DNA of 64,000 bases from a virus, in IMG/VR virus record IMGVR_UViG_3300036770_002019, positions 22,683-86,682 of that record; one strand, given 5' to 3'. Each line of letters starts with the position of its first letter. Position 1 is the stretch's first letter. The notes below the pieces were generated by a model. That model had not been told where the DNA came from. It did not search any database and was given only the letters and a program-made list of their open reading frames with translations. Of this stretch, positions 18,972 to 41,053 are shown in pieces. The position numbers and the translations under genes were made by a program.

Positions 18972-21900
18972 GTGAACTACAAACAGAAAATATAAGCTCT
19001 TTTACTGGTTTACCAATAACTCCTAAAGAAAAGAAACCAGAGGTGAGCGCTTTAACAGGTCTACCAATAACTAATCGTGCGGTTAGAACTGGGGTATTAG
19101 GTAATGTTCTTGGGCAAGCTGCCTCTGGTAATGTTAACTTGTTAGATCAGATGTCTTACAAAGACTATGAGTCTTACAAAAGTTATGGAGTAGCTGTATT
19201 GCCTGGTGTAGACTGGGATGAGCAAAGAGCTCAAAATCAATGGCGGTTAGAGAAATGGGCTTATGGAGCTACTAAAGCAGGAGTAACTTTTGGCACTTCG
19301 CTTTTAGAAAACACGGTAGGTCTAGTTGTAGGATTAGGATCAATAGCTACTGGTGGAAGTTTTTACGACAACCCATTTGGTAGAGGATTGGATAGTGTAA
19401 ATGAATACTTTGCAGAAGCACTCCCAAACTATTATACAAGAGAAGAACAAAACGCTTCTGCTTTAGGTGGGATGATGTATGCAAACTTTTGGGCTGATAA
19501 AGTATTAAATGGTGTAGGATATGTAGCAGGAAGTATTGCTACTGATGCAGCATTAGCATACCTTACAGGAGGAACAAGTTTAGTTGGGACTGCTGCCAGA
19601 TACTCACTAAAGTTTGGGGGAGTTCTATCTAAAGCACAAAAAGCTCAGGCTATATCCAACGTATACAAATTAACTAACTCAGCTCGACAAGGGGCAAAAA
19701 TAGCAGATGTTTTAACTGATGGGGCAAATGCTACAAGTAAACTTAAAAAACTGCGTGGAGCTAGGACAGCTTATGGCAGAGCTGAATCTGGGCTAATATC
19801 TGCTATTGGTGAATCTAACATTGAAGCAAGACAAGCTAAAAATGAAACTCTGCAAGGACTTAAAGAGCAATATGCGCTGCAGAATGGAATATCAGAAGAT
19901 GAAATTCCTGCAGAAATACTAGCAGGTATGGAAGCTTCTGCTACTGCAGCAGGAAATGTTGTATTTGGTATTAACCTCCCAGTAGTGGGGTTAACCAATA
20001 TGGTTACTATTGGGAGAATGTTAGGCCCAGGCTATAAACGATCTCTTCAAAAAGCTGCTCAAGAACGAGCTAAAAAATCTATTTACAATATTGGTGTTGG
20101 GAGAGAAGCTGATGAATTTGTAGATCTTGGATTGCAAGGTAATGCTGTTAAAAGAGCATTTGTAAAAGGTTCTAGAAAATTCGGAGAGAATTTTACTTCT
20201 GCATTATCAGAAGCTGGGCAAGAAGCTACTCAATTCTTTGCTTCTACGTACGCACAAGATTACTATAAAAACAAGTATTTCGGGAGAGCTGAGGGTATTG
20301 ATGGAATGATTGACTCCGCTGTTTATGGGCTAGAGCAAACTTTTGGGACTAAAGAGGGTCTTGAGTCTGCTCTTATTGGGGCAATAGTTGGGGGTGGAAC
20401 TGTTGGGGTACGTAATCTTAACAGAATTAGAAAAGGTGAAGAGTCCCTATCCCAAATCAAAACTAAAAATACACAAACAGTATTAGACATAGTTAACAGT
20501 ACTAATGGTGTAGTAGATGCTGTAGAAAGAGCTAAAAGCGCAGATACTTCTAACAAGCTTGCTCAAGCTATGGATAAACTCATAGCCGTAGCATCTGATC
20601 CGACAGTAGACAAAGCAACTAGAGATAGGGCTCAAAAACAATTTAAAGATTTACAGTATCAACTTGTAGCTAATGAAGCATTTACTCTTCTTGAATTTGG
20701 GAGAGAAGATATTCTTATGCAGCAATTAGATGATGCTAAAGATTTAGATGATGCTGAGTTTAAAAAAGCTTTTGGGTATGATGTTAACCAACCTCTTCCT
20801 GAAGGAGGGAAAGCTGCAATTGTAGATAAAATTAAAGATAGGATAAAGGAGCATAAAAAGGTAAAAGGGCAGATAGAGGAACTTGCCCCAAGACTCGAAA
20901 GAACTACAGGACTCCCAAGAACTTTGATGTCTAAAGAACAACAGCAGCAGGAAGATGAACTTATAGAAGCTAACAATTTCTACAGAAAAGCTCTATACAG
21001 CAGAGCCTCTGCAATATCAGGTTACAATACCAGAGCTGCCTCTATGGGGGTAGAAATGCAAAGAATAGCCTCTGAAACAGGGGTATCTTTGAATAGGGGA
21101 GCTATGGAAGATTTTGAATTCGATCAACTAGAGATTGAATTCGAAGACAATGATGAAGTAAAAGTTCAGGATGGGGGTAAAGTAAAAGGCAAACTTGTAG
21201 AGGAACTTCAAAAAGTTTATGCAGACCTACAAAAGAAAAACCCACTAGCAGCTAAAGAGTTTGCAACTCTTGCACAAGATTACTTGCATATAGTAGCTGA
21301 AAGACAAGCAGCAGTTAATTCTTTTGAAGCCTTGACTGATAAGAATGGATTAGAAAAAAGTGAGTACTTACGAAAGCGTCAAGAAGCAATGGAGGCTGAG
21401 GCTGCTAAAAAACAAGCAGAGGCAGAAGCCAAAGTTATTATAGACACAGCTGAAACTGCAAAAGATTTAGAAAAAGTACCTGATAATGCTACAAAGGAGC
21501 AGAAGGAATTAGCCAAAGCTAAAGCCAAAAGACTGCAAAGAGAGGCAGTTAAACGTGCTAAAAAGTACGAAAATAAAACTCTAGATGAACTTAGAGAAAT
21601 AGATACTGAAGCATTAGCACAACTTCCTGATGGGGAAATTGAGTTAGCCGCTCTTGAACTAGCTATTAACAGAGCTAAGAAAAAAGAACAAAGTCAACCA
21701 GCAATTGATCAAACTGAACCTGAAGCAGTTGAAGAAGCCTTCATCCCTGAAAATGTAGGAGAAGTTCAAATAGTATCAGCTAACAGTAGAGAGTTTGTAA
21801 TAGCTGGGAAAGTATTCTACAATTATGCAGCTGACCCTATATCTGCTATTAACAGAAACGAAGATGGGGTTATAATATCAGTAACTCTTTTAGATGAGAG

Positions 21901-24900
21901 TTTAAACCCACGTACATTTAGGAATGAAGCTACAGTAGATTCTTTAGCTTATGCTATACTTGCAGCACAATACAACACTCCTTCTGACCCAGAGATAACT
22001 GAAACAATAGAAGAAGATGTTGTTGTACGTACAGAAGCTGTTGCAGAATCAGTAGAAAAACTAGAGCGAAAAGCAAAACTTCCTCAAAATAAAGTTGAGA
22101 ATTCTCCTGTAGAAGCTATTAAAGCTCAACTGTTTGAACTGCATAGGGACTTAGAGGAGATAGTGGAAACTTTAGAAGAAAGACACGCTATACTCAGAGA
22201 GCAAAAAGTAAATAAAAAGAATAGAAGCAGAGACCCTCAGATACAAGAACTTACAAAATTAAAAGCTACTGTAGAAAAGCTTATAGCAGAAAGAAAGCAA
22301 GAACTAGAGAAGTTTAAACAAGAAGAAGTAAACCTTGAAGATGCAGAGAACAGACTTAATAAACTACGTACTGAGATAAATAAACTCTCCGAAGAAATTG
22401 CGGAGCTTGAAGCATTAGAATCAAGATTAGAAGAAGGGGGAGTTCAAGAACAAGCTCTTGCTAATGTTAAACAGGCTCGCAGAAAAAAACAAGCAACTAA
22501 GAATAGACTTAGTCGTGAATTAAATAGTATTCAAAATGAAAAAGTTGACTCTACAAGAGATGCAAGACAGGCTGCCGAAAGACTTGCAGGACCAATTAAA
22601 GGGCAAGCCAATGAAGGAGAAGGTGCAAATACTACTCCAGGACCTGGAACAGAGGGGAGAATTGTAGCCTCTAGAACAGATAGAACTGAACAAGCTGCAG
22701 AAGAAGTTGAACAAGCAGAGAGAAACGCTTCTGGGGAGCTTAGAGATCAAGGAGCAGGTCAAGCTCGTGGAGTGAAAGCTGATCAAGTTACTATAACCCC
22801 AACCCCTGCAGCTCCATCAACTCCTGTTTCTACAGATGCTAAAGCTGATATAGAAAGAAGAAAACAAGAATTAGGATTACAAAAAGTATTAAATATTTAT
22901 CCTCCCGACCAATCTGGAGGTTATAGAATAAAAATAAAAGGAGATAAATATGAAGTTCTTGTTCAATTTACAGGCAAAAAGTGGGATATTTTTCCTAAAC
23001 AAAAAAACGGAGATTTTCAAGCAACAGACCCTGAAACAGGTGATGCTTTATTAATTAATAAAGAACAAAGTAGAAAATTAGTAGAGAAATATTTACCTAA
23101 AAAGCTTGTTGATTTAATAGAATCAGCTGATTCTATTAAAGGGGTTGATAATCAAATAAAATTTGAACAAGGTGAAATTAAAGAATATGTAGATTTATTT
23201 AGAAAAGAATGGTTACAAGAAAGAATACCTATAGAAAAAGAATTATTAGAATTTTATCAATCTGATAAATTTGACAGAGAAAAAGAAGCTAAAGAAAGAA
23301 TAATAAAAGCACAACAAGAAGTAATTGCTAAATACGATGCAGAACTAGCTGCTTTAAAACAACAATCTACTGCAGGTACATTTACACCTACTACTCCGTA
23401 TGGAACTCCTAAAGGACCAGAGTTAACTACCGCTTCTACTCAATCTTCTGAGGCAATTCCAGTACAGCAATTACGCCCACAATCAGGATTAGATATTGCT
23501 GTACTCCCAAGTAACTTTGATACCTCTCCTGCATCTCCTGGAAGTGTATATGTAAACCCTGACGGCTCTCTCCCAATGAGTTCTCCTGCATCTCAAACTA
23601 TAAATGGGGAAGCAGTTATAATTGAGGATGGGGCGCTGTACAATTTTGATGATGACTTTGTTGGGAAAACTGTAACATTTGAAGTTAGAGAAGATACTGA
23701 TTGGGCTAAAGAACAATCTGATCTTAGCTGGAAAAATGCCCCAATATATGTAGTTCTTGATGGACAAAGAATTGCTCTTTTACAGTCTTATAATGAAGCT
23801 AAGAATACAGGTACTGCAAGAGAGGCTATTTACAGAATGTACAAAGAGGGGAAAACTCCACAAGCAGTTACTACTGGTAGAGGAGCTTTCAGCTTTTTAA
23901 ATGCTATTAACCCTGATACAGGTAAACCTGAGTTTGTAAATCCTTTAGAAGAATTTGAATCTCCTGCTTTTGCAGTTATTAGTAGCGAGGCAAAACAAGT
24001 TAGATATATAATCGGTCCAGGATCTAATCTCCCACAATCAGAGTTAGATAAAATGCAACAAGACTTGGATGAGCAAGCTTCTAAACTAGATAAAGATAAA
24101 TTTACAGAAGGGCAGGTAGTTATGGTTGTACGTACCCCAAATGGTAAGTATACAACCTATCCTGTATCTACTAAGAATTTAACTGAAGAGAGTACAAAAC
24201 TTGCTCTCAAGTTAATGAGTGAAAACAAAATAGTTGAACTGTTAGACTTAGTTGGGGTTAATGCCGACCCATATAACTGGGCAAGTAGAGCTCAAGGGAA
24301 ACCATCCTTTTTACATTATGTAGAGGCTGGTGACTTTTTTGTATTCCACAGCGATTCTGCAAATCAATTAGTGTCTATTAACTCTACAGAGTTAAGTAAA
24401 GCTATGCGTGGGGAGAAATTCTCTTTTGGGTATGTTCTTGGACCTACAACTGAGGACAATGATAGATTCGATAAAGATGAAAAAAGAAAAGACCACTCGG
24501 CTATTGGTAAGTTTATAGTTTCAGATCTAACAGCTTTACTTAAAAGAAAGAAGTACCAAGTATCAAAAGAATCTGTAAACGATAAAAATGCTCGTATAGT
24601 AAATCCAGAAACTGGGGAAGCTCAAAACTATCAAGAGTATATTTTTGGGGGAGGTCTTGCACAAGTAGATACTAGAAATAATAAAGGGTCTGTATTCCAC
24701 GGACTTCAAATTAAATTTGGGGCAATAGAGTCAGACAGTAAAACAAAAGGAGCTACAACTGCAGCTGCAACTTCTGTACACTCTAAACCTGCAACTACGT
24801 CTACTACTGAAGTAGTTAGATCTGAGGGTAAAAAAGCAGGTAGAGTTAGAAAAACAGAAAAAGTGGTAACTTTGAGTGAGTTAGGAGCTCAACCATCTGA

Positions 24901-25078
24901 TGAAATAAAAGCACAGTTAATGGCTGAAATGCAAGGAGTTACCCCACAAAACTTAGCAGATCTTGTAGGTAAATCCGCACCAGTTGCTCCTACAGCTGGG
25001 GGAATTAAAGTACTTTCTAAAAATGATTTGAACTCTCTGATAGATTTTGGAGATGAACTTAACAATATCTGTAAATAA
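18968..25078 (+). CDS. Giant cargo protein associated with virion RNA polymerase
   Basis: A 2036-residue protein. The first 40 residues hold two copies of the phrase (S)(F/A)(L)TGLPIT. Residues about 165-200 (YANFWADKVLNGVGYVAGSI) match a block seen in crAss-like giant virion proteins. Long coiled-coil stretches follow (about 800-890 and 1050-1220). The last third is globular with PDTGKPEFVNPLEEFESP-type strands. A segment at about residues 1295-1460 (bases 22850-23350) is markedly more AT-rich and lacks the G-run codon pattern of its surroundings. The C-terminus ends NNICK. In crAss-like phages such proteins are packed with the RNA polymerase; no catalytic motif was identified here. Confidence 0.7.
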   Translation: MSELQTENISSFTGLPITPKEKKPEVSALTGLPITNRAVRTGVLGNVLGQAASGNVNLLDQMSYKDYESYKSYGVAVLPGVDWDEQRAQNQWRLEKWAYGATKAGVTFGTSLLENTVGLVVGLGSIATGGSFYDNPFGRGLDSVNEYFAEALPNYYTREEQNASALGGMMYANFWADKVLNGVGYVAGSIATDAALAYLTGGTSLVGTAARYSLKFGGVLSKAQKAQAISNVYKLTNSARQGAKIADVLTDGANATSKLKKLRGARTAYGRAESGLISAIGESNIEARQAKNETLQGLKEQYALQNGISEDEIPAEILAGMEASATAAGNVVFGINLPVVGLTNMVTIGRMLGPGYKRSLQKAAQERAKKSIYNIGVGREADEFVDLGLQGNAVKRAFVKGSRKFGENFTSALSEAGQEATQFFASTYAQDYYKNKYFGRAEGIDGMIDSAVYGLEQTFGTKEGLESALIGAIVGGGTVGVRNLNRIRKGEESLSQIKTKNTQTVLDIVNSTNGVVDAVERAKSADTSNKLAQAMDKLIAVASDPTVDKATRDRAQKQFKDLQYQLVANEAFTLLEFGREDILMQQLDDAKDLDDAEFKKAFGYDVNQPLPEGGKAAIVDKIKDRIKEHKKVKGQIEELAPRLERTTGLPRTLMSKEQQQQEDELIEANNFYRKALYSRASAISGYNTRAASMGVEMQRIASETGVSLNRGAMEDFEFDQLEIEFEDNDEVKVQDGGKVKGKLVEELQKVYADLQKKNPLAAKEFATLAQDYLHIVAERQAAVNSFEALTDKNGLEKSEYLRKRQEAMEAEAAKKQAEAEAKVIIDTAETAKDLEKVPDNATKEQKELAKAKAKRLQREAVKRAKKYENKTLDELREIDTEALAQLPDGEIELAALELAINRAKKKEQSQPAIDQTEPEAVEEAFIPENVGEVQIVSANSREFVIAGKVFYNYAADPISAINRNEDGVIISVTLLDESLNPRTFRNEATVDSLAYAILAAQYNTPSDPEITETIEEDVVVRTEAVAESVEKLERKAKLPQNKVENSPVEAIKAQLFELHRDLEEIVETLEERHAILREQKVNKKNRSRDPQIQELTKLKATVEKLIAERKQELEKFKQEEVNLEDAENRLNKLRTEINKLSEEIAELEALESRLEEGGVQEQALANVKQARRKKQATKNRLSRELNSIQNEKVDSTRDARQAAERLAGPIKGQANEGEGANTTPGPGTEGRIVASRTDRTEQAAEEVEQAERNASGELRDQGAGQARGVKADQVTITPTPAAPSTPVSTDAKADIERRKQELGLQKVLNIYPPDQSGGYRIKIKGDKYEVLVQFTGKKWDIFPKQKNGDFQATDPETGDALLINKEQSRKLVEKYLPKKLVDLIESADSIKGVDNQIKFEQGEIKEYVDLFRKEWLQERIPIEKELLEFYQSDKFDREKEAKERIIKAQQEVIAKYDAELAALKQQSTAGTFTPTTPYGTPKGPELTTASTQSSEAIPVQQLRPQSGLDIAVLPSNFDTSPASPGSVYVNPDGSLPMSSPASQTINGEAVIIEDGALYNFDDDFVGKTVTFEVREDTDWAKEQSDLSWKNAPIYVVLDGQRIALLQSYNEAKNTGTAREAIYRMYKEGKTPQAVTTGRGAFSFLNAINPDTGKPEFVNPLEEFESPAFAVISSEAKQVRYIIGPGSNLPQSELDKMQQDLDEQASKLDKDKFTEGQVVMVVRTPNGKYTTYPVSTKNLTEESTKLALKLMSENKIVELLDLVGVNADPYNWASRAQGKPSFLHYVEAGDFFVFHSDSANQLVSINSTELSKAMRGEKFSFGYVLGPTTEDNDRFDKDEKRKDHSAIGKFIVSDLTALLKRKKYQVSKESVNDKNARIVNPETGEAQNYQEYIFGGGLAQVDTRNNKGSVFHGLQIKFGAIESDSKTKGATTAAATSVHSKPATTSTTEVVRSEGKKAGRVRKTEKVVTLSELGAQPSDEIKAQLMAEMQGVTPQNLADLVGKSAPVAPTAGGIKVLSKNDLNSLIDFGDELNNICK

Positions 25079-25084
25079 AAACTG

Positions 25085-28000
25085 ATGGCAACTTGTCCTA
25101 ATAGAAATTTAAAAGCTTGGAAAGATTTAGAAGCTGTTCAAGGAGAATCAATTGCATTAGCGATATGGGATAGATTTGATGGTCGTCCCCCAGAATTCTT
25201 TTACTCTACCCCACTTAAAGAGGGGACAGTAATAACAAAAGGATTTGATGTTCAGACTAGATTTACTGAGGAGCAGAATAATGCTATTCTTGATAGTATT
25301 ATCTACATGCTCATGGAGCAAAAAAAGCAAGAAGGCTTTAAGATAGAAGAGCAAATTGGAAATAAATCCACCAAAGGCTCTATCCCTAATTTCTTTCTGC
25401 AGCAAGCTTATGAGAATGAAAATGGAACAGCTGTTAGTTTAGAAGTAGCAGAATCTATTTGGGGGAAAGAGCAAGCATACGAAACGGCTGTAAGAGAAAA
25501 TCTCCCAGAAGAAACTCAAAATGCATTGTATGATGAGTGGGTAAATGCTATGGAAGAATCAGATGTTTATGAATCTGAACACCCAGCACGTGAAGCCTTT
25601 CTTGATATTTATGAGTTTTGGAATGGGGGTATTATTACCACAGGTAAAACAGAGAATGAAGTAAAATCTGACATAGCTTTAGGTAATATAGATATTGTTG
25701 GGTGGAGAGAACTCCTATCTAATAGAATTAAAGAGTTTGGGTATTCTATCTCAAACGTCGAACAAGAGGTAGAATTTGCATCAGACGAGGACATACTAGA
25801 AAGAATCTACAGTAAAGCTAGTATGGAAGAAGACCCTTCAAAAAAATTATCTGGGAGGATGAAAGAGCTATTAGCTACTATCCCTAACAGACAATTAAAT
25901 TTCCTAGGGTTAGCTAGTTATTTACCTGCAGATCAGATATATAAAGAACTTGCTACAACATTTGCAGGGTTGCAGAACTTCCCTGAAATGCTTGCTCAAG
26001 TAGAGACATTAGCATTACATAAACCTCAGTACGAAGCGGTGTCTGAGTTTATGAAAGGATTGAATAAAAAAGATGCTGCAGCTTTCAGTAGAATCTTTGC
26101 ACAATCTGCAAATGAGTTTTTGTTGATTAGAGTAGAAGCTAAAACTCCTGCAGGAGATGTAGTTAGAATATTTAACCCAAACGAAAACAGGATTGAGAGA
26201 TCTATAGCTACTACTTGGAAGAACGGAGCTGTAGAATCTAACATAGCTAAACCAAAAGCTATCTACAAAGTAACAGAGGAAGGCCTAGAAATAGATCAAA
26301 ATAAAGCTAAAGCTATTGCAGAAAATTGGTTATTGGTTAGAAGAGGTATTGCAGGTGTAGATTCGGTATCATCTACTCAGGGGGAGATATCTAAACCTGT
26401 ACAAGCTCTAACTGATATGCTGTGGAATATGGGGATATACTTAGGTGACCCAGAGATTAAACAAGAAACAGCCAATAACCTACAACAAGTTGTAAATACA
26501 GGAATATTTGTAGTAGAGAAAGGTAGAAGACAAAAACTTACAGGTAGAGCTGCTTATAACTACATTGCAAACAAAGAGGGTAAAAGCTTAGCAAGACTTG
26601 TATCTCAATTTGTAGTACTTAGCCCTGATGGAACTAAAGTTGAAAAAACTTTACGAACAGTTTCCACTACAATGTATGAGTCTCAAGGCTCAACAGTAAG
26701 ACACTTAGCATCGTTTGCCCCATTGTTTTTTGAAATGCGTGGGGATAGTTTTGTTAATGGGAAAGGTAAACAAATCTACCCAATTAATTTACGCCATCAT
26801 TTAGGTCAAGTATTTGAAACTCTTGGGAGTTCTACAGAGGATAAAACTAAGATGATGGATATGTATAGAGAGGATAAATTCTTTGCTCCTGTAGAAGGGA
26901 AAAATGAATTTGACTCTATACTTTTTAGACTTCTACAATCCCCAGAATTTACTAATGAGTTTAGAGCATTTGATTTAGATGCCCTCAAAGATGTTACTAT
27001 TCCTGATGGTACTGTAGATTACGAAAACTTCTCAAATACAGACTCTCTACGCACAAGATTAATTGCATACATCAACTCAGGTAATAGATCTACAGGATTA
27101 ATTGCTATCCCTATTCAATCTGATAGAAAGAAGTTTACTTTCTTCCCATTTGTACGTACAAAAAATTTAGCTGGTACACGAAAAGGTACTTTTGGGATAA
27201 CAGGGATGACTAAAAACGACATCATACTTGGACTTATAGTGCAAGATATGATGCGTATTGCTCATGGTAGAGGAATTCTTAGCAATCAAGTAACTGAAGA
27301 CGGACTCCCAAACCCACCAAAAGACCTTCCTGAAACGTATAAAAAGAATTTAAGTTCCCCAAAATCTATGCAATTTGATGGGACTTTAGTTGGGTCAGAA
27401 GGTAACATCCCTATTGTAACAGATGCTAGGCTTGAATCTAAAACTGGGGAATACTTCATTAGTGATTACATAGAAGAGTTTCTAACTGATCCAGAAGAGC
27501 TTAGAGACATTGAACCAGAAGTATTTAACGAAATACAGACTAAGATCAATGTAATGGTTGAGAGAGCTAACGAATACTTTCTCAACCAAGCTAAGATTTT
27601 AGATACTAAAATAAAAGAACAAGGGATAACTCTCCCAACAGAGGCACGAGAGTTTGGGGATAGAATGTCATTACTTGAAAATTATGTATTTGATGAGTTC
27701 TTAGGTAGAAACGAGATATCTAAAATACTTAGAGGTAGTAGAGCTCACGTAAAAGATATTCAAACCTTTTACAAAAGAGTTGGGCATGCTACTACTCCTG
27801 GGATGGAGGTAGCTTTAGCATCAGATTTAGCTATAAATGGATTGCAGGAAGTAGATGGGATAAGCAACTATGGGATGCCTGATACTTTTATAGAAGCTAC
27901 TTTTAATGATATTAAGCTTAACTTGGATGAAGAGATGCGTACACGCGCGATAGAAAGAGCTGAAGCAATTCGAGACGGACTTATTGAAGCTGGGTATGAT

Positions 28001-31000
28001 GCTGATTTTGCACAGTCAATGGCAGAAGAATACATGCCTAATGAAGTAGAGGGTACAGACGCACAGGGGTTGATTTCAATAGATTTCTATAGAGATCTAA
28101 TGCAAGGTAAAGGAGAGTGGACAATCAACGAAGAGAAAGCTTACGATGCATACAAACAAGCACCCGAAGGAAGTAAGCAATTTGTATATCAAACAGGCTT
28201 TACCCCACAAGGATTTAAACCAGGAGATGCAGTACCTTTTTATCCGCAAAAACCTTACTATGAGTACAATGAACTTGTAGGTGGGGTTGTTACGACTGAC
28301 TCACATAAAAACTCTTATCACTTACTATTAGAAGGGGAAACAAAAAGTAACCCTGTAAAAGACAATCTAAGACGGAGAATGGAGGCTGTTGGAGAGTATG
28401 CAGGCTTGCAACGTATTGGGGTAGCTAACTTTGTAACAGCAAAGAAGATTAAGATCAACAAGGTTAATACTTTGACTGATAAAGTTGGTGGGCTATCTAA
28501 TGTAGGAACTAATACAGTTAACAGTAGAGGACTAAGATTCCCTCAAGAGATCCCAAAAAAGAAAGCTTCTACTACAATGTTTAACCGTCAGGTTAGAAAG
28601 AATACAATATCGAACATTGATCCTAATCACACGTACACATTAAATGCGGGGTTAGATACTGAAATAAAAATATCAGGCCAAGAAATGCTTGATATGTATC
28701 ACGCCGCTATAGAACGTAAAATAGAACTAGAATTTAAGCAAGTAGAGAAAGAGCTTGGGGTAGATAAAATACAGAAAGCTTTAGCTAAACAAGATGTTGA
28801 AGAGTATAATGCAGCTTTAACTTCATTTCTACGTAAGCTTAGAGATAAGATTAAAGACAATAACATTGAAAGGGATCTCCCAACTAACTATGATGCTGGG
28901 TTAAGAATTGAGTTAGATGAAGCTGGGAGACCTCAATACCAAATTCCACTAGACTTCCCTATATACTTTGAAAAGTATGAAAGAGTACTCCTTGGGATGG
29001 CTGTTAATGCTGCATTTAAACAGAAAGTTCCAGGAATGGAGGCTGTGCAAGTTGCAGAAATTGGGGGATATGCTGAATCTGGGGAGTTAAACTTTTACGA
29101 AATCCAAAAAGATAAATCAGGTACCCCAAGAGTAGTTCACATGGAGGTAATGATTCGTGAGGATATAGCTCGTAAATTTGGGTTAGAGCCTGGACAAGAC
29201 TTAGACTCACTCCCAGAAGAACTAAGACGTATTATAGGGTATCGTATCCCCAACCAAGGAAAATCTTCTACAGTAATAATGAAGATTAAACGAATCCTAC
29301 CAGCTAATTATGCAAAAGCTGTTATAGTTCCTGCTCAATTAACTAAACTCACAGGATCTGACTTCGATATTGATAAGATGTTCTTGATGTTCCCAGAAGT
29401 TAGACAAACAGATGCTGGACCAGTTAAAGTTCGTCCTCCTTATGAGGGGATATTAGGAAAAGCTGTCCAGCCTGTAGCGGAATCAATTAATATTTATGCA
29501 GGAGATAATCAAAATGCAGATTTAAGTAATTTCGCAATTCGTCCTTTTGTTGTGCAGGGCGTGGAATACAAATCTGTAGAACAATATTTCCAATCTAAAA
29601 AGTTTGAAATTGCCGAAGTTCTTGAATTTGACACACAAGAAGCTGCTGATAAAGTCTTTGCAATAGCTGATAAGATTATGGAGACATCTTCTGGAGCGCA
29701 GTTAAAAAGACTAGGAAACACAAGAATACCAGGCGTAACTTTTAACGAAGAAAGTTGGAATGTATATGGAGAAGAAGCCATGTATGTGGGTATTTATGAA
29801 AGTTTTAATCAGAACCCAGAAGCAAGAAAACGTTTATTACAAACAGGCAATGCAGAACTAACCCACAAACAAGATAAATCTAAGTGGGGGAAAAAGTTCC
29901 CTGAAATACTAACTAGAGTTAGGGAAGAACTTAAAAAAGAATATCCGCAAGATGTACCTATAAAACCAACCCAACCTTCACAACAAGATTTAAGCACTCC
30001 TACTGCTATCAAACCAGGAGTAGAAAAATTATTTGATTCTAATCCTGAATTAGCTAATCAAGTATATGAAGCTTTGGGGTTTGATAATTTTACTAATCAG
30101 GAAAAAGAAACCTTAATAGCACAATTAAGAAATCCATTATTTGATTTAGTAAGAGGTACTGAATTGTATAATAAATATAAAGGAGAAACTATACCTTACG
30201 GCTATTCAGAAAATTCTTGGAAATTACTTATTTCTGGAATAACTGAATCTAAACTAGATTTAAATAAAATTTTATTAGGTTATAAACAAAGACTTTTAGA
30301 AGAAGAAAACACACCTATTAGAGAAACAGGTATTGACGAAAAAACAGGATTACCAAAAGGATTTAATCCTTCTACTGGTGCATTTGAAGGAGGATTTGGA
30401 GAAATTTCAGAAAAAGAAAATGCAATAAAAACTTCTAAAAATAAAATAAATGTTTTAAATAAATTTATACAACAAAAACAACAAGCTCTACAACTATACT
30501 CTCAATACTTAGATACAGGTAAACAAGATATAGAAGGATTTAAAGATTTTGCTAAATCTCCACTACAACAAGATATAAGCATAGATAAAATAACAGATAT
30601 ATCTATCCTAAACAATATCATTTTAGATGTAGTAGAAGCTGTTCAAGCTAATCTACTCCACGTAAATGAATCTATGGCTCCATTAGATGAATCTACTCTA
30701 CCTAGATTAGTTGCAGATATTGAAGCTAAATTCCCAGAATTACAAGCCCCACTAGAGTTTGCTAGTGTAGACATTGAGACAGAAATGGGGATACGAAATA
30801 CTATAGGTAGAGCTATGCGTGGATTGTGGGCTAACTTTATAGCTGGTCATGCTGTAGCTGCTTTTGGGGATATTGTAGTAAATGCTAACTACGAATTAAA
30901 TTTAGATGGGAAAGCATACCCAAAACTTATAGGAGTTGCAGGGCAAGAAGTTGCAGAGTTCGACAGAGGAGTTCCTATTAACATGATAGGTTCTAGATAC

Positions 31001-32719
31001 TTATCTGCCGCAGTAGATGCTGCTAAAAAACCTTATCAGTATACACTTAATGATAGAACTTTTACTTACCCTATAGAAGCTTATTGGATGGCCTTCTCTG
31101 GGGATACAAAAGCGCTGCATGATTTCTTGAATGTCCCAATCATAAGACAGTTTACTGATTTGTTTTATACAAAGTATGGAGCCAAACCTATACTAATGGA
31201 GAATGCACTATTAGATGTTATCCCTAAAATGTATAAAGACAGCTTGAAAGAAGATAGGTTACGTCCAGCTACCTCAATGACAAGAGAAGAACTTGCAAAC
31301 CCACAAGATCTTCCTCCTGCTAGACAGTACGAGCTGCTATTAAACATGTTAAAGTTTAGAGAGGCTGGTAGATCTATGACTCAAATGTTTAAGGTTATTG
31401 CCCCAGATTCTATGGATGGTATGAACAGCATAGATTCTATTAAATCATACAGAAGTAGACAGAATCAGTTTAACCCTAACATTACAAGCCCAGAAAATCA
31501 AATCTTCATAAACCCAAATGCTCCTTTAGAGCCTGTAGTAGATCAATTTATAGGACAAGTAAGTGTATATGGAATGCAGAGAGGGTTTTCTAATCTCTTT
31601 TTGGATATTGCAGATATGGCTGCTAAGATATTCCCCATGACTGTATCCCCAGCTATGGATAATCTGGACATGAGAATAATGGATTTAACTGGGAATACAC
31701 AATTAAATCCTGAAGCGCATAGAGATATTAGAAGAGCAGCTATGCTAAGTGTATTTGCTCAAGAAGAATCCCCATTAAGAGAATTCTTCAGTGATACGCA
31801 CCTAAAACTAAACTATCTAAACAAGGATAGTAACTTGGTTACAAAGCTCAGGGACTTGAAAGTAAAGTATCCTAAACTTGCAGAAAACTTGTTTATTAGA
31901 AAGTTTGTGGAGAACAATGATAATGACCTCCCAGAAACTAAAGTGTTCTTGTTAGATTTCGATACATCTTATCAAATGACTAGGTTTGAAAAAGATGCAG
32001 TAACTTTAGCAGCATACAGATTACTTAAACGACCAGAAGAAGTTGTTGGGAAAGATGCTTCGATAGAAGATAGACAATCTATAATAAACTTAGCTGAAGA
32101 TCTGTTGATGAACACATTAATAGTTCATGGGTTTAAACAAACGACTGGTTCATACCAAGATCTTATACCTGTAACATTCTTTACAGATAATAGGTTTGCA
32201 CGTTACAACAATCCTGGGGAAAGACTTGGATCCCCAGTTAAATACTTTAGACAGCAGATGACTTCTATGTATACCATAGATACTTTTGATAACTTTGCAG
32301 TAGATTTTATACGCCAAAGCTTTCAAACGTCTCCTGGTGGATACACATTAGTCCAAGGTATACGAAAGAAAGCAACACCTAATGAAATCGTTTTAAGTGA
32401 TAAAGACAAGATTAGAATGTACAGAAATGGGTACCCAATTCCTTTTATTACAGTGACAAACTCTACAACTAACGAAACATTCTTGTACGCATCTGGTCAT
32501 ATTTTAACTTCAGGAACTGTAGAAGGAAAGTATGTAAAAGTTAATCCTTTAGGGGTAGACAGTAAATTAATAGAAGCAACAAACCCTGATAAGTCTGTAA
32601 TCAATGAACAAGGATTACCACTATCATCTATTGTTATGACTTCTACAACTACAGGAATTTCAACTAATGCAGGCTCAATAGCCTCTACAGAGAACCAACA
32701 ATCTATAATCTGCAAATAA
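25085..32719 (+). CDS. Virion RNA polymerase with inserted NADAR domain
   Basis: A 2544-residue protein. Residues 1426-1430 are DFDID within KLTGSDFDIDKMFLMF, the metal-binding loop of the YonO-like two-barrel RNA polymerases of crAss-like phages (the phi14:2 gp66 type), which is packaged and injected to transcribe early genes. Upstream, EGTDAQGLISIDFYRDLM (about 987-1004) is another recurring block of this polymerase. Residues about 1468-1620 form a NADAR domain: INIYAGD..NADLSNFAIRPF, VEYKSVEQYFQSKKFE, ESWNVYGEEAM, NPEARKRLLQTGNAEL and KSKWGKK. The polymerase sequence appears to resume near residue 1836 (SILNNIILDVVEAVQANLL). The N-terminus MATCPNRNLKAW is a typical opening of this cluster. 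The C-terminus ends IICK, like that of the preceding protein. Confidence 0.85.
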   Translation: MATCPNRNLKAWKDLEAVQGESIALAIWDRFDGRPPEFFYSTPLKEGTVITKGFDVQTRFTEEQNNAILDSIIYMLMEQKKQEGFKIEEQIGNKSTKGSIPNFFLQQAYENENGTAVSLEVAESIWGKEQAYETAVRENLPEETQNALYDEWVNAMEESDVYESEHPAREAFLDIYEFWNGGIITTGKTENEVKSDIALGNIDIVGWRELLSNRIKEFGYSISNVEQEVEFASDEDILERIYSKASMEEDPSKKLSGRMKELLATIPNRQLNFLGLASYLPADQIYKELATTFAGLQNFPEMLAQVETLALHKPQYEAVSEFMKGLNKKDAAAFSRIFAQSANEFLLIRVEAKTPAGDVVRIFNPNENRIERSIATTWKNGAVESNIAKPKAIYKVTEEGLEIDQNKAKAIAENWLLVRRGIAGVDSVSSTQGEISKPVQALTDMLWNMGIYLGDPEIKQETANNLQQVVNTGIFVVEKGRRQKLTGRAAYNYIANKEGKSLARLVSQFVVLSPDGTKVEKTLRTVSTTMYESQGSTVRHLASFAPLFFEMRGDSFVNGKGKQIYPINLRHHLGQVFETLGSSTEDKTKMMDMYREDKFFAPVEGKNEFDSILFRLLQSPEFTNEFRAFDLDALKDVTIPDGTVDYENFSNTDSLRTRLIAYINSGNRSTGLIAIPIQSDRKKFTFFPFVRTKNLAGTRKGTFGITGMTKNDIILGLIVQDMMRIAHGRGILSNQVTEDGLPNPPKDLPETYKKNLSSPKSMQFDGTLVGSEGNIPIVTDARLESKTGEYFISDYIEEFLTDPEELRDIEPEVFNEIQTKINVMVERANEYFLNQAKILDTKIKEQGITLPTEAREFGDRMSLLENYVFDEFLGRNEISKILRGSRAHVKDIQTFYKRVGHATTPGMEVALASDLAINGLQEVDGISNYGMPDTFIEATFNDIKLNLDEEMRTRAIERAEAIRDGLIEAGYDADFAQSMAEEYMPNEVEGTDAQGLISIDFYRDLMQGKGEWTINEEKAYDAYKQAPEGSKQFVYQTGFTPQGFKPGDAVPFYPQKPYYEYNELVGGVVTTDSHKNSYHLLLEGETKSNPVKDNLRRRMEAVGEYAGLQRIGVANFVTAKKIKINKVNTLTDKVGGLSNVGTNTVNSRGLRFPQEIPKKKASTTMFNRQVRKNTISNIDPNHTYTLNAGLDTEIKISGQEMLDMYHAAIERKIELEFKQVEKELGVDKIQKALAKQDVEEYNAALTSFLRKLRDKIKDNNIERDLPTNYDAGLRIELDEAGRPQYQIPLDFPIYFEKYERVLLGMAVNAAFKQKVPGMEAVQVAEIGGYAESGELNFYEIQKDKSGTPRVVHMEVMIREDIARKFGLEPGQDLDSLPEELRRIIGYRIPNQGKSSTVIMKIKRILPANYAKAVIVPAQLTKLTGSDFDIDKMFLMFPEVRQTDAGPVKVRPPYEGILGKAVQPVAESINIYAGDNQNADLSNFAIRPFVVQGVEYKSVEQYFQSKKFEIAEVLEFDTQEAADKVFAIADKIMETSSGAQLKRLGNTRIPGVTFNEESWNVYGEEAMYVGIYESFNQNPEARKRLLQTGNAELTHKQDKSKWGKKFPEILTRVREELKKEYPQDVPIKPTQPSQQDLSTPTAIKPGVEKLFDSNPELANQVYEALGFDNFTNQEKETLIAQLRNPLFDLVRGTELYNKYKGETIPYGYSENSWKLLISGITESKLDLNKILLGYKQRLLEEENTPIRETGIDEKTGLPKGFNPSTGAFEGGFGEISEKENAIKTSKNKINVLNKFIQQKQQALQLYSQYLDTGKQDIEGFKDFAKSPLQQDISIDKITDISILNNIILDVVEAVQANLLHVNESMAPLDESTLPRLVADIEAKFPELQAPLEFASVDIETEMGIRNTIGRAMRGLWANFIAGHAVAAFGDIVVNANYELNLDGKAYPKLIGVAGQEVAEFDRGVPINMIGSRYLSAAVDAAKKPYQYTLNDRTFTYPIEAYWMAFSGDTKALHDFLNVPIIRQFTDLFYTKYGAKPILMENALLDVIPKMYKDSLKEDRLRPATSMTREELANPQDLPPARQYELLLNMLKFREAGRSMTQMFKVIAPDSMDGMNSIDSIKSYRSRQNQFNPNITSPENQIFINPNAPLEPVVDQFIGQVSVYGMQRGFSNLFLDIADMAAKIFPMTVSPAMDNLDMRIMDLTGNTQLNPEAHRDIRRAAMLSVFAQEESPLREFFSDTHLKLNYLNKDSNLVTKLRDLKVKYPKLAENLFIRKFVENNDNDLPETKVFLLDFDTSYQMTRFEKDAVTLAAYRLLKRPEEVVGKDASIEDRQSIINLAEDLLMNTLIVHGFKQTTGSYQDLIPVTFFTDNRFARYNNPGERLGSPVKYFRQQMTSMYTIDTFDNFAVDFIRQSFQTSPGGYTLVQGIRKKATPNEIVLSDKDKIRMYRNGYPIPFITVTNSTTNETFLYASGHILTSGTVEGKYVKVNPLGVDSKLIEATNPDKSVINEQGLPLSSIVMTSTTTGISTNAGSIASTENQQSIICK
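29485..29943 (+). other. NADAR domain within the RNA polymerase gene
   Basis: Codons about 1468-1620 of the polymerase gene. The order of blocks follows the NADAR/YbiA family from start to end: a first strand with Y.GD, then LSNF, then Y.(S)VE(Q)Y(F)Q(S)KKF, then A..LG..R.IPG, then W....EAM..G...SF.QNPE.R..LL.TG.AEL, then D.S.WG.K, then VREELKKEY. Known members cleave N-glycosidic bonds: YbiA acts on early riboflavin intermediates, and others remove ADP-ribose from guanine as the antitoxin of DarT1 systems. The length of about 153 residues equals that of stand-alone members, so nothing seems truncated. Confidence 0.85.
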
Positions 32720-35700
32720 TGAGCTGCGAATATAAAATAAACGGGAAAACAGACCCAACCCATACAGAGTTATTCAACTATGTTGCGAATAACAGAGAGA
32801 GATCTGCAGACGAAGTATACAGAATACTGAGAGAAGCAGGCATAGCAATTAAAAAAAATGATGCTGGAGGGAATCCTCGTATGTACTTAGTTATGGGTAC
32901 AGATAGCTCTGTTAGCTACAAACGAGCTCAAGACATAAATTTAGGAGCTAGATTATTTTTTGGAGTGCCTCAAAACGAAAGACTTTTAGAGTACACTAAT
33001 CTAGGTACTAGAAGTAACAAATTTACTGGGGTAAATACTCTGTTTGGGTTGAGGATTAATGAGTCCGTTTTAAAAAATATGGAGTCACCTCAACAGCAGT
33101 ATGAAAATATTGCAGAGATACTTGAAGAGGAGGCTAGAAGAGTTATCTTAGACACTCCATCCCCATTTAGGGATGATTATTTATTATCGGAGGCTGCTCT
33201 TCAAGCTAATAATTCTGAAAGATCTAAGTTTTCTAAGATGGCTCAAAATAGTGTAGATAACACTGTTAAGCAAATTACAAAACTAAAACAGGCATTTAAG
33301 AATGCTGGTATTGATGTAGAGGTAAGATTAGATGGGGATATCGAAGAAAAGGGGGTTTTACTTCCAGTAAGTGAAGACAACCCAAATCCAGTAATACTTC
33401 TTAACCCAAACGAAATTACAGAAGATACTGTATACCATGAGTTTGCTCACTTGTTCATAGATTTATTGGGGTATAATCACCCACTTGTACAACAAGCTAT
33501 GGAAGAGCTTAGAGGTAGTGAACTTTACCAAGAAGTATTAGAGTACTACCCCGAGCTGGAAGGAGATACTGAAAGATTAGATAAAGAAGTACTTGCAACA
33601 GCAATAGGATTAGAAGGGGCACGAATGGAGAAGAAGGCCCCTAACAAATTACAATCCATTATAAATAGAATATTCAGAGCTATAGGAAAGTTACTTGGGG
33701 TATCTCAAAACGCAGTTTCTCAGTTAGCTGTAAATATGATTGTGAATGAAATAGATGTTACTCAATTTAGAGGGGCACTATCTTCATATGCTCAAATGAG
33801 TAAAGCTGAACGCAATGTAAAAAACATTGTAGAAACTCTTAGGGAGAAAACAGAAACAGCTATTCTACAATTAGAGTCTCTCCCATTTAAAAACGAAGCC
33901 GCTATTAACGAACTCAAACTCCAGCAATCTAAACTAGAGACGGTTACAGAAGTAGAGGGTTTGATTGACTTTGTTAACTACACAACTAGATTAGCTGCTA
34001 GAGCTGAAACAACTTTTGAAAACATCTTAACTGAGTATTCTCCTAATCCTGCACTAATTACTGGGGAAAAAAGATTACAAATGCTGCAACAATTGCATCA
34101 AGTACATCAATGGTTGCAGGCATTTCACAATAACACTAGCAAAAATGGGTCTACACTTACAGCTATCAAGTTAGAGCTACGTAAAAAAACAGATGCTGTA
34201 GAAGCTTCTGGTGGGAATATAGCAGAGCTAACAGCTTTTAAAACCAGACTGGCAGATGCTATTGATGTATTAGATGAGTTAGACGAAAAGTATGCTAAAG
34301 TGGGTATCCCAATTCTAGCAGATCTTCTATTAGAATATAACAAACCGCAGATCGACGATAAAATTAATGCAGCAATAGAAAAAGTCCGCACTACTGGTAG
34401 AGAATTTGGGTTGGAGAGAAAGACCCCTGAATTTAGAGAACTGCAAAGACAGCTTAAAGCAGGAGAAATAACTAAACAAGAGTTTGATGCTGCAAAGATT
34501 GAATTGAATATAAAACATCTACAAGCCCGTAAAATTGGGAGAGAAGCTATTATTCAAGAGCTTACTGAGAGTCAAAAGAATAAAAGCTGGTTATCATATA
34601 TGATGGATCCAGTTATATACTCATCTCAACCAGCTATACAGTTATTTGCAGGACACGTTAAAGCAGCACTATACAGAGCTGCAGATAAGTTTAGAGAAAC
34701 TAAATATGAACTCAGAGACATCTACAGAGAGTATGCAGAGTCAAGACCTGGGACGGAATTTGACGATGCAGCTTTCAACGAACCTGTTCTTGAAACTTAC
34801 ACATATGAAGTTATAGATTGGGAGGAAACTAAGAAGACTGGGGAACATGTAACTAAGAGAATGAATCTTTTAAGTTTTGTTCAACCTTATGATGTTGGGA
34901 AGTATTACCAGGCAGAAACAGATGCAATTACATCTTTAGCTAAAAAATATAATCGACCTACAGACCCAGACGAATTAAAAGCTTGGACTAAATCTAAAAA
35001 AGCAACTCAATATTATGCTGAGCTTTCGCAATGGTATGCAGAAAACTCTGTAATGGCAGAAGATGCTCAAGAGAGATATGATACTTTAATAAGTAAAAGA
35101 AAAGCTCTCCAAGTAGAATTAGAACAAGCTTTACAGGTAGGGAATTCTAATAAAGTTGGGTTGTTAGAAGCAGAGATAGCTTCTTTATCTACTCAAATTG
35201 GGGCAGCATATGACTTTAGAGCTAAACAATTTAAAGGTTCATTCGCTCGACCAAATGATAAGTACAGATCTGAAAAGTACGAAAAGCTTGTAAAAGATAA
35301 ATCGTCTGTAGAATATAGATACTATCAAGCGTTATTAAATGAGTACAAGAAATCTCAAAAGAAATTAGGACGTACAAACCAAGTTAGAAATAGTTGGAAT
35401 GACTTTTCTTACATACTCCCAACAGTTAGAAAATCTACCCTTAATAAAACAATAGAGGGGGCAAGTTCTATAGATGTATCTCAAGTTGTATCTGCAGGTA
35501 AAGATATGATTAAAGATACGTATGAAATCCTGGAAACAGATACTGACTACGGGGTACTTGTAGGATTAAATGGGGAAAGATTACAAACTGTACCTGTATT
35601 CTTTACAAACCCTGTAGATGAAAAAGATGTAAGTAGGGATGCTCTTGGGAGCATACTTAAGTTTACACATATGTCCAACATGTTTGAAGAAAAATCTAAG

Positions 35701-37284
35701 ATACTTGGGTCTGTAGAAATGATGAGAAGTGTTATTGAACAGCGAGGAACTTTAGAGCAAGATGAATCAGGTAACCCAGCGTTTAATAAAGTTACAGCCA
35801 GACTTAAAAATATGGCCAAGCGTGCTGTAACACAAGACCCTAAAAAAGACCCAGATAATCAATTTAGACATTTAAGTGAATTCATAGACTCTGTATTCTA
35901 TGGGGAAAAAGATCTTAAAAATCAATTAAATGCATCAATAAGATTATTTGGGAAAGAGATAGACATATCTGGGAATAAACTTTCTCAAACAGCAACAACT
36001 CTAACTGCAGCTACGTCATTGATTGGGAACAAGCTGCAAGCAGTTAACCAGATAATAATGGATAATGAACGTTTGATTGAAGAAGGGATTGCAGGAGAGT
36101 ACTTTGGGAAATTAGATTTAGCTTGGGCAAAAGGAGAGTACTATAAAAATCTACTGACTTTAAAGACAGTAAAAGATGCAGGTAGTTTTGCTAAGGATAA
36201 TAAAATGCTTCAAGCTGCAGAGCTATTAGATGCATTATCTGATTTAATAGACAGCAATGGGGATAGAGTTACAGGAGCTCGTCTTAAAAAGTATCTGTCC
36301 TTTGATACAGGATTCTTTATGCAGAACATGGCAGAACATGAAACTGCTTTAACACGAATGCTTGCTGTAGCTAGAGGATACAAAGGAAAGCTAAAAGATG
36401 CTGCAGGTAATGTAATATTGAACGAAAAGAACGAACCTGCAGATTTATACGACCTGCTTGTAAAAGATAAAAAAGGAATGTTAACTCTGGACCCAAGAGT
36501 AGCTAATATTACTTTGTACGATGTAAGGAGTACATTAGCAGGATTACAAAAGAAATCCAATCAGCTTAAAGGATCAGTAGATAGGTCTATGGCTGAAAGA
36601 AGAGCTGCAGGAAAGATGGTTACTTTGTTTAGAAGATTCTTAGCCCCAGGTTTTAGAAGACATTGGGGTCATGGAGGGTTAGCTAACGTAGCTTTCTTAC
36701 ATGTAGATACAGAAACAGGAATGCTGTCTGAAGGAGCGTATTGGACTACATTCAAATACATTCGAGATCAAGTACAAAGTATAGCTACAAAACAACCAGC
36801 TAATGTTTGGAATTTATTAACTGCAGATGAAAAAGCTAACGTACGTAGAACTGCTGCACAATCTACATTCTTTTTAAGTTCTATGATTTTAAGTGGATTG
36901 TTAATGGGGGCAGCAGCAGATGAGGACGATGAGGAAAAAGCTGCTCAATACATTTTCTGGGCGTACCAAGCTAGAAGACTGCAGACTGAACTTGGGGCAT
37001 TCTTATCCCCAAAAGAAGTGTACAACATTACTAAATCCCCATCAGCTGCTTCTAGGCCTATAATGAATATATATGATCTAATGACACATATTGTTTTCAA
37101 AGAGATACCGTATGCTTTAGGTGCAGATGGATTAGAAAAAGATATTTTCTACCAACGCAAAAGCGGGGAATTTGAAAAAGGGGATAGAAAAGTAATTAAG
37201 AAGATCAGATCTGTTATCCCAGTATGGAGCGGGTTAAACAAAAACGCTGAAGAGGCTATTAAGTGGTTTGATCTTAATGGGTAA
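32719..37284 (+). CDS. Giant cargo protein with zincin metallopeptidase motif
   Basis: A 1521-residue protein. Residues 240-244 are HEFAH in DTVYHEFAHLFIDLLG and a downstream DKEVLATAIG supplies a candidate third ligand at E290, the HExxH...E layout of gluzincin-type peptidases. The N-terminus (SCEYKINGKTDPTHTELFNY) is a short module seen at the start of proteins in this cluster. The central part is coiled coil; near the C-terminus a hydrophobic stretch (FFLSSMILSGLLMGAAA, about 1389-1405) is followed by an acidic run. The gene starts in a TAATG overlap with the polymerase gene and is the last of the left arm, ending just before a bidirectional terminator. It may process virion proteins or host proteins after injection. 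Confidence 0.75.
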   Translation: MSCEYKINGKTDPTHTELFNYVANNRERSADEVYRILREAGIAIKKNDAGGNPRMYLVMGTDSSVSYKRAQDINLGARLFFGVPQNERLLEYTNLGTRSNKFTGVNTLFGLRINESVLKNMESPQQQYENIAEILEEEARRVILDTPSPFRDDYLLSEAALQANNSERSKFSKMAQNSVDNTVKQITKLKQAFKNAGIDVEVRLDGDIEEKGVLLPVSEDNPNPVILLNPNEITEDTVYHEFAHLFIDLLGYNHPLVQQAMEELRGSELYQEVLEYYPELEGDTERLDKEVLATAIGLEGARMEKKAPNKLQSIINRIFRAIGKLLGVSQNAVSQLAVNMIVNEIDVTQFRGALSSYAQMSKAERNVKNIVETLREKTETAILQLESLPFKNEAAINELKLQQSKLETVTEVEGLIDFVNYTTRLAARAETTFENILTEYSPNPALITGEKRLQMLQQLHQVHQWLQAFHNNTSKNGSTLTAIKLELRKKTDAVEASGGNIAELTAFKTRLADAIDVLDELDEKYAKVGIPILADLLLEYNKPQIDDKINAAIEKVRTTGREFGLERKTPEFRELQRQLKAGEITKQEFDAAKIELNIKHLQARKIGREAIIQELTESQKNKSWLSYMMDPVIYSSQPAIQLFAGHVKAALYRAADKFRETKYELRDIYREYAESRPGTEFDDAAFNEPVLETYTYEVIDWEETKKTGEHVTKRMNLLSFVQPYDVGKYYQAETDAITSLAKKYNRPTDPDELKAWTKSKKATQYYAELSQWYAENSVMAEDAQERYDTLISKRKALQVELEQALQVGNSNKVGLLEAEIASLSTQIGAAYDFRAKQFKGSFARPNDKYRSEKYEKLVKDKSSVEYRYYQALLNEYKKSQKKLGRTNQVRNSWNDFSYILPTVRKSTLNKTIEGASSIDVSQVVSAGKDMIKDTYEILETDTDYGVLVGLNGERLQTVPVFFTNPVDEKDVSRDALGSILKFTHMSNMFEEKSKILGSVEMMRSVIEQRGTLEQDESGNPAFNKVTARLKNMAKRAVTQDPKKDPDNQFRHLSEFIDSVFYGEKDLKNQLNASIRLFGKEIDISGNKLSQTATTLTAATSLIGNKLQAVNQIIMDNERLIEEGIAGEYFGKLDLAWAKGEYYKNLLTLKTVKDAGSFAKDNKMLQAAELLDALSDLIDSNGDRVTGARLKKYLSFDTGFFMQNMAEHETALTRMLAVARGYKGKLKDAAGNVILNEKNEPADLYDLLVKDKKGMLTLDPRVANITLYDVRSTLAGLQKKSNQLKGSVDRSMAERRAAGKMVTLFRRFLAPGFRRHWGHGGLANVAFLHVDTETGMLSEGAYWTTFKYIRDQVQSIATKQPANVWNLLTADEKANVRRTAAQSTFFLSSMILSGLLMGAAADEDDEEKAAQYIFWAYQARRLQTELGAFLSPKEVYNITKSPSAASRPIMNIYDLMTHIVFKEIPYALGADGLEKDIFYQRKSGEFEKGDRKVIKKIRSVIPVWSGLNKNAEEAIKWFDLNG

Positions 37285-39084: not shown

Positions 39085-39863
39085 TCATCATCAGATTGAG
39101 TGTTGTTTGAAATTGTTTCTATGTTATGTACTACAAGTTCAGGAATAATATTACTCCCAAACTCCCTAATAACATCCTGTGGTGTTTTTAAGAGGTACAC
39201 TAATCTAAAAGTCTGATTGAATTTAAAGATTCCTTCAGTCATACCAAACTGCTCCACATACTTTTTAATAGTAAATGCTTCAAAATCCTTTGTTCTGTCC
39301 TTTAACCAATTTTCTGCTGTCTTCTCCCCTACTCCTCTTAATCCTGGTATGTTATCAGTAGAGTCCCCCATCAACACTTGTTTCCAAAGAAACCACAATG
39401 CTACGCCAGGGGAAGTATGTACAAATTCTGTTGTACGATAGTTGTAATGCATGCCAACACATTGATACAATACATCTTTATCTGGGGAACAAATGATAGT
39501 TTTACGTTCCGTATTATATGCATAATACGCAACTAAATCATCTGCCTCAAGTTCTGAAATGTATGTAAATCTCCAACGCTGTATTAAATATTCCACTAAA
39601 GCTGGGAATATAATAGGCCTTGAAGATCTGGAATCTTTACGTTTGGCTTTATACAAAGGGTCAACATTATATCTAAAACATTGACCTTTAGTAAGAAAAC
39701 CTGCAAAAGAAGAGGTGTTGCAACTGTTCAACATATGATAAATACGTTGATCAAGTCCAGCAACAGCCTCCTCTAATGTAGGTTTATCCATCTCGTAGTA
39801 CAACAGAGAATCCCCATCAATCAAACAAATATCATTACCTTTTGGGATTCTCTCTATACTCAT
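39078..39863 (-). CDS. 5'-3' exonuclease (FEN/PIN-like)
   Basis: A 261-residue protein with the metal site order of the phage 5' nuclease family: IDGDSL near the N-terminus, YKAKRKDSR (arch region), SELEADDLVAYYA, SPDKDVLYQC and GDSTDNIPGLRGVGEKTAE, the last being the helix-hairpin-helix entry. It should remove RNA primers and process flaps during phage replication, in place of the 5' nuclease domain that the family A polymerase of this phage lacks. It abuts the rIIB-like gene and overlaps the next gene by 7 bases. Confidence 0.92.
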   Translation of the reverse strand: MSIERIPKGNDICLIDGDSLLYYEMDKPTLEEAVAGLDQRIYHMLNSCNTSSFAGFLTKGQCFRYNVDPLYKAKRKDSRSSRPIIFPALVEYLIQRWRFTYISELEADDLVAYYAYNTERKTIICSPDKDVLYQCVGMHYNYRTTEFVHTSPGVALWFLWKQVLMGDSTDNIPGLRGVGEKTAENWLKDRTKDFEAFTIKKYVEQFGMTEGIFKFNQTFRLVYLLKTPQDVIREFGSNIIPELVVHNIETISNNTQSDDEW

Positions 39864-41032: not shown

Positions 41033-41053
41033 AAATTTTTAATTTTAAAGTGT

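Follow-up and report, generated by a model that had tools for sequence, protein, structure and literature searches.

We identified an intact NADAR domain inserted into the virion-type RNA polymerase of a phage whose sequence places it in or next to Crassvirales, an order dominant in the human gut. The domain occupies the loop behind the DFDID motif of the polymerase and is accompanied, in the same insert, by an AT-rich payload cassette, the framing blocks of which are conserved at the DNA level between unrelated phages. The analysed DNA, here called the window, is a stretch of 64,000 nucleotides covering bases 22683–86682 of an 86,682-base virus record from one metagenomic assembly. An earlier sequence-only reading had noticed the NADAR domain in the polymerase, which stands; the recurrence of this arrangement across phages and the cassette in the same insert had escaped it.

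Results and discussion

The record contains PHROG matches to terminase, portal and major head protein and, together with its block of giant genes, displays a Crassvirales genome context, with a terminase that is 42% identical to that of human-gut crAss-like phages. The polymerase is encoded by an uninterrupted ORF of 2544 aa (25085–32719, + strand), which matches the phi14:2 virion RNA polymerase gp66 (6VR4, E 1e-15, through the DFDIDK motif) and crAss001 Gp50 (E 1.7e-32, the alignment continuing in a second segment past the insert), so that its homology to virion RNA polymerases includes the active-site region. The metal-binding motif DFDID of the DPBB-A barrel lies at residues 1426–1430 (29360–29374, +), where it aligns to DFDIDK of 6VR4 and is conserved in 52 relatives, and an alignment of 52 polymerases shows the core restarting at residues 1842–1853 (LNNIILDVVEAV; 30608–30643, +), with LNNIILDVV at about residue 1842. 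The helix and loop that follow DPBB-A are part of the clamp in two-barrel RNA polymerases (PMC10770324). Two further giant genes lie next to the polymerase gene on the same strand. The gene of 2036 aa that adjoins it (18968–25078, +) is assigned to a predicted virion cargo block by analogy with crAss001 Gp47–Gp50, while the gene of 1521 aa (32719–37284, +), for which family searches gave no convincing family match, would by crAss001 gene order hold the position of the Gp49-like polymerase-associated cargo protein. RIIB and RIIA lysis-inhibitor PHROG matches were additionally observed in two neighbouring genes at 39863–43684 on the minus strand.

The sequence-only reading had placed the NADAR domain 38 residues beyond DFDID, and both this spacing and the uninterrupted frame proved right. 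We delimit the domain to residues ~1467–1621 (29483–29947, +). PF08719 matches residues 1476–1603 with E 6e-14 and 53 bits (range 53–59), above the curated cut-off of 35.1, which settles the proposed identity, and reaches E 6e-17 in the whole-record search. The domain is further matched by phrog_1017 (E 2.6e-18) and, with phmmer, by E. coli YbiA (2B3W, E 2e-4), and a profile built from 36 viral NADARs recovers 2B3W (7e-36) as well as the ADP-ribose-bound NADAR 8BAU (5e-25). The only other Pfam match in the polymerase ORF is Phage_30_3. For the isolated domain, AlphaFold2 yielded a model with pLDDT 94 and pTM 0.89, which shows the helical core and two small beta sheets of the YbiA fold and for which 2B3W (E 2e-7) and 8BAU (E 2e-5) were the only good PDB fold matches in Foldseek. 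Several profile libraries and the fold rule out chance similarity, and residues ~1467–1621 are a true, intact NADAR domain. The PADLOC candidate defence model PDC-M42C also matches it (29402–30000, E 3e-16), and defence scans may therefore mis-call such polymerases.

Separate folding, likewise expected from the beginning, is borne out by a 1080-residue composite model (pLDDT 72, pTM 0.54), in which the NADAR domain at pLDDT 81–97 is flanked on both sides by linkers below 50. Foldseek returned 6VR4 first for this model, followed by YbiA and 8BAU, and these were the only three matches with E <1e-3. The alignment underlying the composite is partly wrong around the insert, so that it supports separate folding, while the exact orientation of the NADAR domain is not to be read from it.

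Comparison with other polymerases identified the domain as an insertion. The loop between DFDIDK and the next conserved helix measures 32–53 aa in 28 of the 52 polymerases and 416 aa in the window, where it is longest; most relatives lack the insertion. At locus L016 the loop holds 175 aa including a NADAR, and its relative L038, with polymerases 66–74% identical, has a loop of 38 aa and hence a clean empty site. Gp50 of crAss001 aligns on either side of the insert and carries no NADAR; its two aligned core segments are 122 aa apart, compared to 403 aa in the window. Empty sites and the separate fold rule out that the domain is an integral part of the polymerase. The content of the insert had thus been recognised correctly by the sequence-only reading as far as NADAR is concerned, while its extent had not: the polymerase restarts only at ~1842, and a second module at residues ~1641–1824 had been overlooked. 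The NADARs of the window and of L016 fall into different subgroups of the tree described below, which points to independent entries into the same loop. Loops of 135–225 aa without NADAR are found at the same polymerase site in L033, L037, L014, L021, L044 and L022.

The reading that the arrangement is an artefact, be it an assembly chimera, an intein or a misidentified NADAR-like part of the polymerase, we regard as extremely improbable. As the cassette blocks are nearly identical between phages, assemblers might go astray at B1 and B3 (see below), and a chimera retains some residual probability for the cassette. However, the NADAR domain lies outside those blocks, in frame and with normal G+C, and the same kind of fusion is present in independent contigs and in the public genome cr126_1, so that a chimera is unlikely for this domain. 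An intein or intron was rejected because a Pfam search of the protein gave no Hint or endonuclease match, and the fold is separate.

The active site could be mapped using published NADAR mutagenesis (PMC11543638). By alignment to 8BAU, E1499 (29579–29581, +) corresponds to the catalytic E88 of the E. coli C7 NADAR and E43 of the P. nicotianae NADAR, and K1506 (29600–29602, +) to the catalytic K95 of the E. coli C7 NADAR (K50). The last-strand residue, for which Glu, Asp or His is expected, is H1594 (29864–29866, +), identified by profile alignment to 8BAU as the phage-type histidine at the E125/D171 position, which is kept in polymerase-fused NADARs. W1558 and W1601 are retained, and the pyrophosphate contact equivalent to R79 is displaced in the window copy (LGNTR vs LGR). 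With a histidine rather than an aspartate on the last strand, and with its embedding in a polymerase ORF, the domain, judged from its own ORF, does not classify as a DarTG1 antitoxin.

These data also bear on the idea that the domain is a relic, i.e. an inactive insert that a surface loop can accommodate. Insertions are common at this site, and relatives tolerate loop lengths of 32–225 aa. Nevertheless, we consider a relic very unlikely. The catalytic Glu and Lys are invariant in all 38 aligned NADARs, the predicted fold is of high confidence, and related copies are under purifying selection, with dN/dS of 0.14–0.30 in compared pairs that lie outside the window copy. Moreover, the domain keeps the G+C content of its host gene and is therefore not a fresh arrival.

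NADAR–polymerase fusions recur in other phages. In 50 whole records of polymerase relatives, a Pfam search turned up only two NADARs, each of them part of the polymerase ORF, and a profile built in this analysis added one further NADAR in L019. A single-protein NADAR scan of viral contigs gave no match and an alignment query was needed; this NADAR-seeded scan, together with later loci, yielded 24 ORFs from about 23 distinct phages, the window included, in which NADAR and polymerase core share one frame. The offset of the NADAR from the core ranges from −1988 to +1497 aa; these values are inflated by other insertions and include some ORFs cut at locus ends, which makes the count of distinct sites approximate. 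In a tree whose bootstrap is not fully settled and in which some rows are long, stand-alone YbiA-like phage NADARs are split with full support from a group of 37 rows that unites the gp30.3 proteins of KVP40 and RB49 with all polymerase-fused NADARs and with further copies from giant ORFs. Some giant ORFs that lack a polymerase core also carry NADARs.

Among public genomes, gp003 of the Kolpuevirus cr126_1 (NC_055884.1, 5509–12717, L166) is a DFDIDK polymerase with a NADAR at residues 53–205, which belongs to the same subgroup as the window domain and is 36% identical to it. The protein is annotated only as 'DUF1768 domain-containing protein', and its scanned part showed no cassette block. NADARs were likewise found inside giant annotated CDSs of cr130_1, cr131_1 and cr272_1 (L165, L167, L168), the giant NADAR CDSs of these public gut phages and of cr126_1 being annotated as DUF1768, hypothetical or DprA-like. 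With this many occurrences, the fusion appears to be a repeatedly used means of supplying a counter-defence enzyme right at the onset of infection.

With regard to function, we favour as the probable reading that the NADAR domain is a co-injected, ADP-ribose-cleaving counter-defence payload, for which the polymerase would mainly serve as delivery vehicle. A NADAR of the gp30.3 type, an ADP-ribosyl N-glycosidase, would have been built into a tolerant loop between the DPBB-A barrel and the next clamp helix. As virion cargo, judged from crAss001 and phi14:2, the polymerase would be pushed into the host and refold there, and the NADAR would enter among the earliest phage proteins, ahead of all phage gene expression. 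It could then hydrolyse base-attached ADP-ribose (most likely on guanine, in DNA or RNA) or the soluble ADP-ribose signals of host NAD-based defence. Beside it, a second cassette, with an exchangeable payload, would have been added later.

Gp50 of crAss001 was found in virions by mass spectrometry, and ejection through the tail followed by refolding in the host was proposed for the virion cargo Gp47, Gp49 and Gp50 (PMC10172136). Fused to a Gp50 homologue, the NADAR domain should therefore travel with the polymerase, and its co-injection, as suggested by the sequence-only reading, can soundly be inferred. The interpretation given by that reading is, taken as a whole, partly supported. Its suggested removal of ADP-ribose from DNA or countering of a NAD-linked defence agrees with the active-site residues still present and with the behaviour in vitro of T4 gp30.3, which frees guanosine of ADP-ribose in both DNA and RNA (PMC11125620, PMC11833690). 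It counts against a counter-defence role, however, that gp30.3 gave no rescue of DarT1 toxicity in cells (PMC11125620) and that the R79-equivalent contact is displaced in the window copy. Phage NADARs were also proposed to clear mostly soluble ADP-ribose derivatives (PMC9503650).

Alternatively, the domain could owe its place to transcription-coupled cleaning, in which a NADAR beside the catalytic site strips guanine ADP-ribose from the template or the nascent RNA. Such a role would agree with the independent presence of two NADAR subgroups in the loop next to DFDID (window and L016) and with the action of NADARs on guanosine-ADP-ribose in single-stranded DNA and in RNA (PMC11543638, PMC11833690). 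We nevertheless rate it as unlikely, as most polymerase-fused phages have the domain at a protein end or separated from this site by hundreds of residues, and it is also present in giant ORFs devoid of a polymerase core. Since related NADARs occupy many other places of the same protein in other phages, proximity to the catalytic loop probably has no function of its own, and the variable position together with the core-free giant ORFs favours the polymerase as a vehicle.

The second module of the insert is an AT-rich cassette at 30006–30556 (residues ~1641–1824). Its left frame is block B1 (KPGVEKLFDSNPELANQVYEALGF; KPGVEELFDSNPELANQVYEALGF; 30006–30088, +), which was recognised by blastn, with 85–94% identity over ~80 nt to dozens of unrelated contigs, and by its same-codon excess. 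It is followed by the variable segment X1 (30089–30460, +), which is framed on the right by block B2 (IQQKQQALQLYSQYL; ITPQQKQQALQLYSQYL; 30461–30511, +). The end of block B3 (GKQDIEGFKDF; 30518–30550, +) is joined directly to B2. Relatives carry a fuller cassette in the order B1, X1, B2, V (DTIFPDSKVKDIVYHGT), a variable X2 and B3 (EPEQIHILGSKQDIEGFKEFV). At L067 an X1 that is 89% identical to that of the window is present together with V, an X2 with a weak ART-PolyVal match, and B3. As B2 runs straight into B3 in the window, the ADP-ribosyltransferase slot is empty here. No ART-PolyVal domain (PF18760) lies between V and B3 as it does in L088 and L104, where the family is matched, and searches of the window cassette returned no family match.

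Among the fetched loci, a BLOSUM block scan picked up the blocks in 155 ORFs, a figure that includes overlapping loci from one and the same contig; they always lay on the coding strand. Their payloads vary. X2 gave ART-PolyVal matches in 26 of 57 cassettes, and in L078 it matches an AAA_33/zeta-toxin-like kinase. L073 carries a NADAR as its X1, and acetyltransferase matches were obtained in three cassettes. The cassette frame was seen in giant phage proteins at loci L067–L123 and L174–L253.

The cassette blocks are conserved at the DNA level between unrelated phages. At shared residues the same codon is used in 85% (B1), 82% (V), 77% (B2) and 73% (B3) of cases, versus 56–58% expected from codon usage, while controls remain close to expectation, with 57% vs 55% for the polymerase DFDIDK block and 59% vs 54% for the start of NADAR. 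The cassette of the window has a G+C content of 0.265 and a GC3 of 0.07, compared to 0.36–0.37 and 0.26–0.27 in the polymerase. With 0.35 and 0.22 the NADAR domain is polymerase-like, and it therefore looks older, the AT-rich cassette being a recent arrival beside it. A second DNA-conserved frame is located in the adjoining giant ORF (18968–25078, +), where C1 (TDAKADIERRRQEEL; 22820–22870) and C2 (INAKYDAELAALE; 23313–23363) flank a variable segment and C1 reaches a same-codon rate of 0.90 vs 0.58 expected. A cassette query against bacterial genomes found no relative, cassette queries against an annotated phage collection gave no match apart from one weak match, and a query with the L088 cassette returned its own contigs alone. 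The B1 DNA block was also seen in three contigs from bacterial bins, assigned to Patescibacteria, Bacteroidia and Neisseriaceae (L257, L258, L259), which are probably phage contigs binned there.

Tentatively, as an idea that falls just short of probable, we suggest a shared swappable-payload system in which B1, B2/V, B3, C1 and C2 would act as recombination handles. ADP-ribosyltransferase, NADAR, acetyltransferase, kinase and other domains would be exchanged as cassettes in virion-injected giant proteins of crAss-like and related phages, the polymerase included, and the NADAR of the window would be one such payload.

The ADP-ribosyltransferases in sister cassettes also raise the alternative that NADAR serves self-protection, balancing a co-injected ADP-ribosyltransferase by erasing its mark from phage molecules. 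In its favour, the ART-PolyVal matches noted above occur in the same kind of polyprotein, L073 (8022–9152) has its NADAR inside a cassette with the ART-slot frame blocks V and B3, the NADAR of L224 shares one ORF with V and B3, and DarT1–NADAR pairs are toxin and antitoxin (PMC11543638). For the window we consider this quite unlikely, however. Its ART slot is empty, a search over the initial 23 kb of the record found no ART-like start motif of the VYHGT type, and the block scan detected no V or B3 blocks in window ORFs. Most polymerase-fused NADARs are, furthermore, without a cassette in the fetched ORF, and the ART-PolyVal match in L073 stays short of the 0.01 threshold. The combination of NADAR with V and B3 in one polypeptide (L073, L224) raises the idea of a co-injected writer and eraser. 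For the window, the counter-defence payload remains our preferred reading.

Conclusions

Several elements of this arrangement have known counterparts. Gp30.3 of the T4 type (Phage_30_3, PF08010) is likewise a phage NADAR, with a His in place of the YbiA glutamate, the same E and K and the same tree clade, but it is a small stand-alone gene, whereas the NADAR of the window resides inside a virion RNA polymerase. crAss001 Gp50 and phi14:2 gp66 are homologous polymerases from the same kind of gene block, with packaging in virions reported for crAss001 (PMC10172136), yet Gp50, unlike the window polymerase, has no NADAR. In cr126_1 gp003 the domain is found at the N-terminus, in contrast to the loop after DFDID in the window. 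Virion-packaged NADARs have already been predicted (PMC9503650).

The polyvalent proteins of phages and conjugative elements (Iyer et al. 2017, PMC5512222) are a known class of giant multidomain proteins that are presumed to be injected and bring together unrelated enzymes. The window protein, with polymerase core and NADAR in one polypeptide predicted to be injected, has this character, and ART-PolyVal is found in the sister cassettes. A term search of that paper gave no mention of NADAR or crAss-like phages, nor was a description of DNA-conserved block frames found. Literature searches on NADAR with crAss and on DUF1768 with phage gave no report of a fusion of NADAR and virion RNA polymerase among the matches listed, and the literature searched held no report of the cassette frames. 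New here are the DNA-conserved cassette frames and the finding that about 23 distinct phages encode NADAR and polymerase core within a single ORF, with the NADAR at many positions; the cassette system would be more novel than the NADAR fusion if recombination were proved.

Through the fusion, a counter-defence enzyme that processes ADP-ribose would gain access to the host before phage transcription, attached to the very polymerase that transcribes. Because the fusion recurs in many Crassvirales-type phages, one public genome among them, it is open to immediate testing. The cassette frames with their conservation at the DNA level, in turn, suggest a general mode in which phages reshuffle injected effectors, and could guide the search for further ones.
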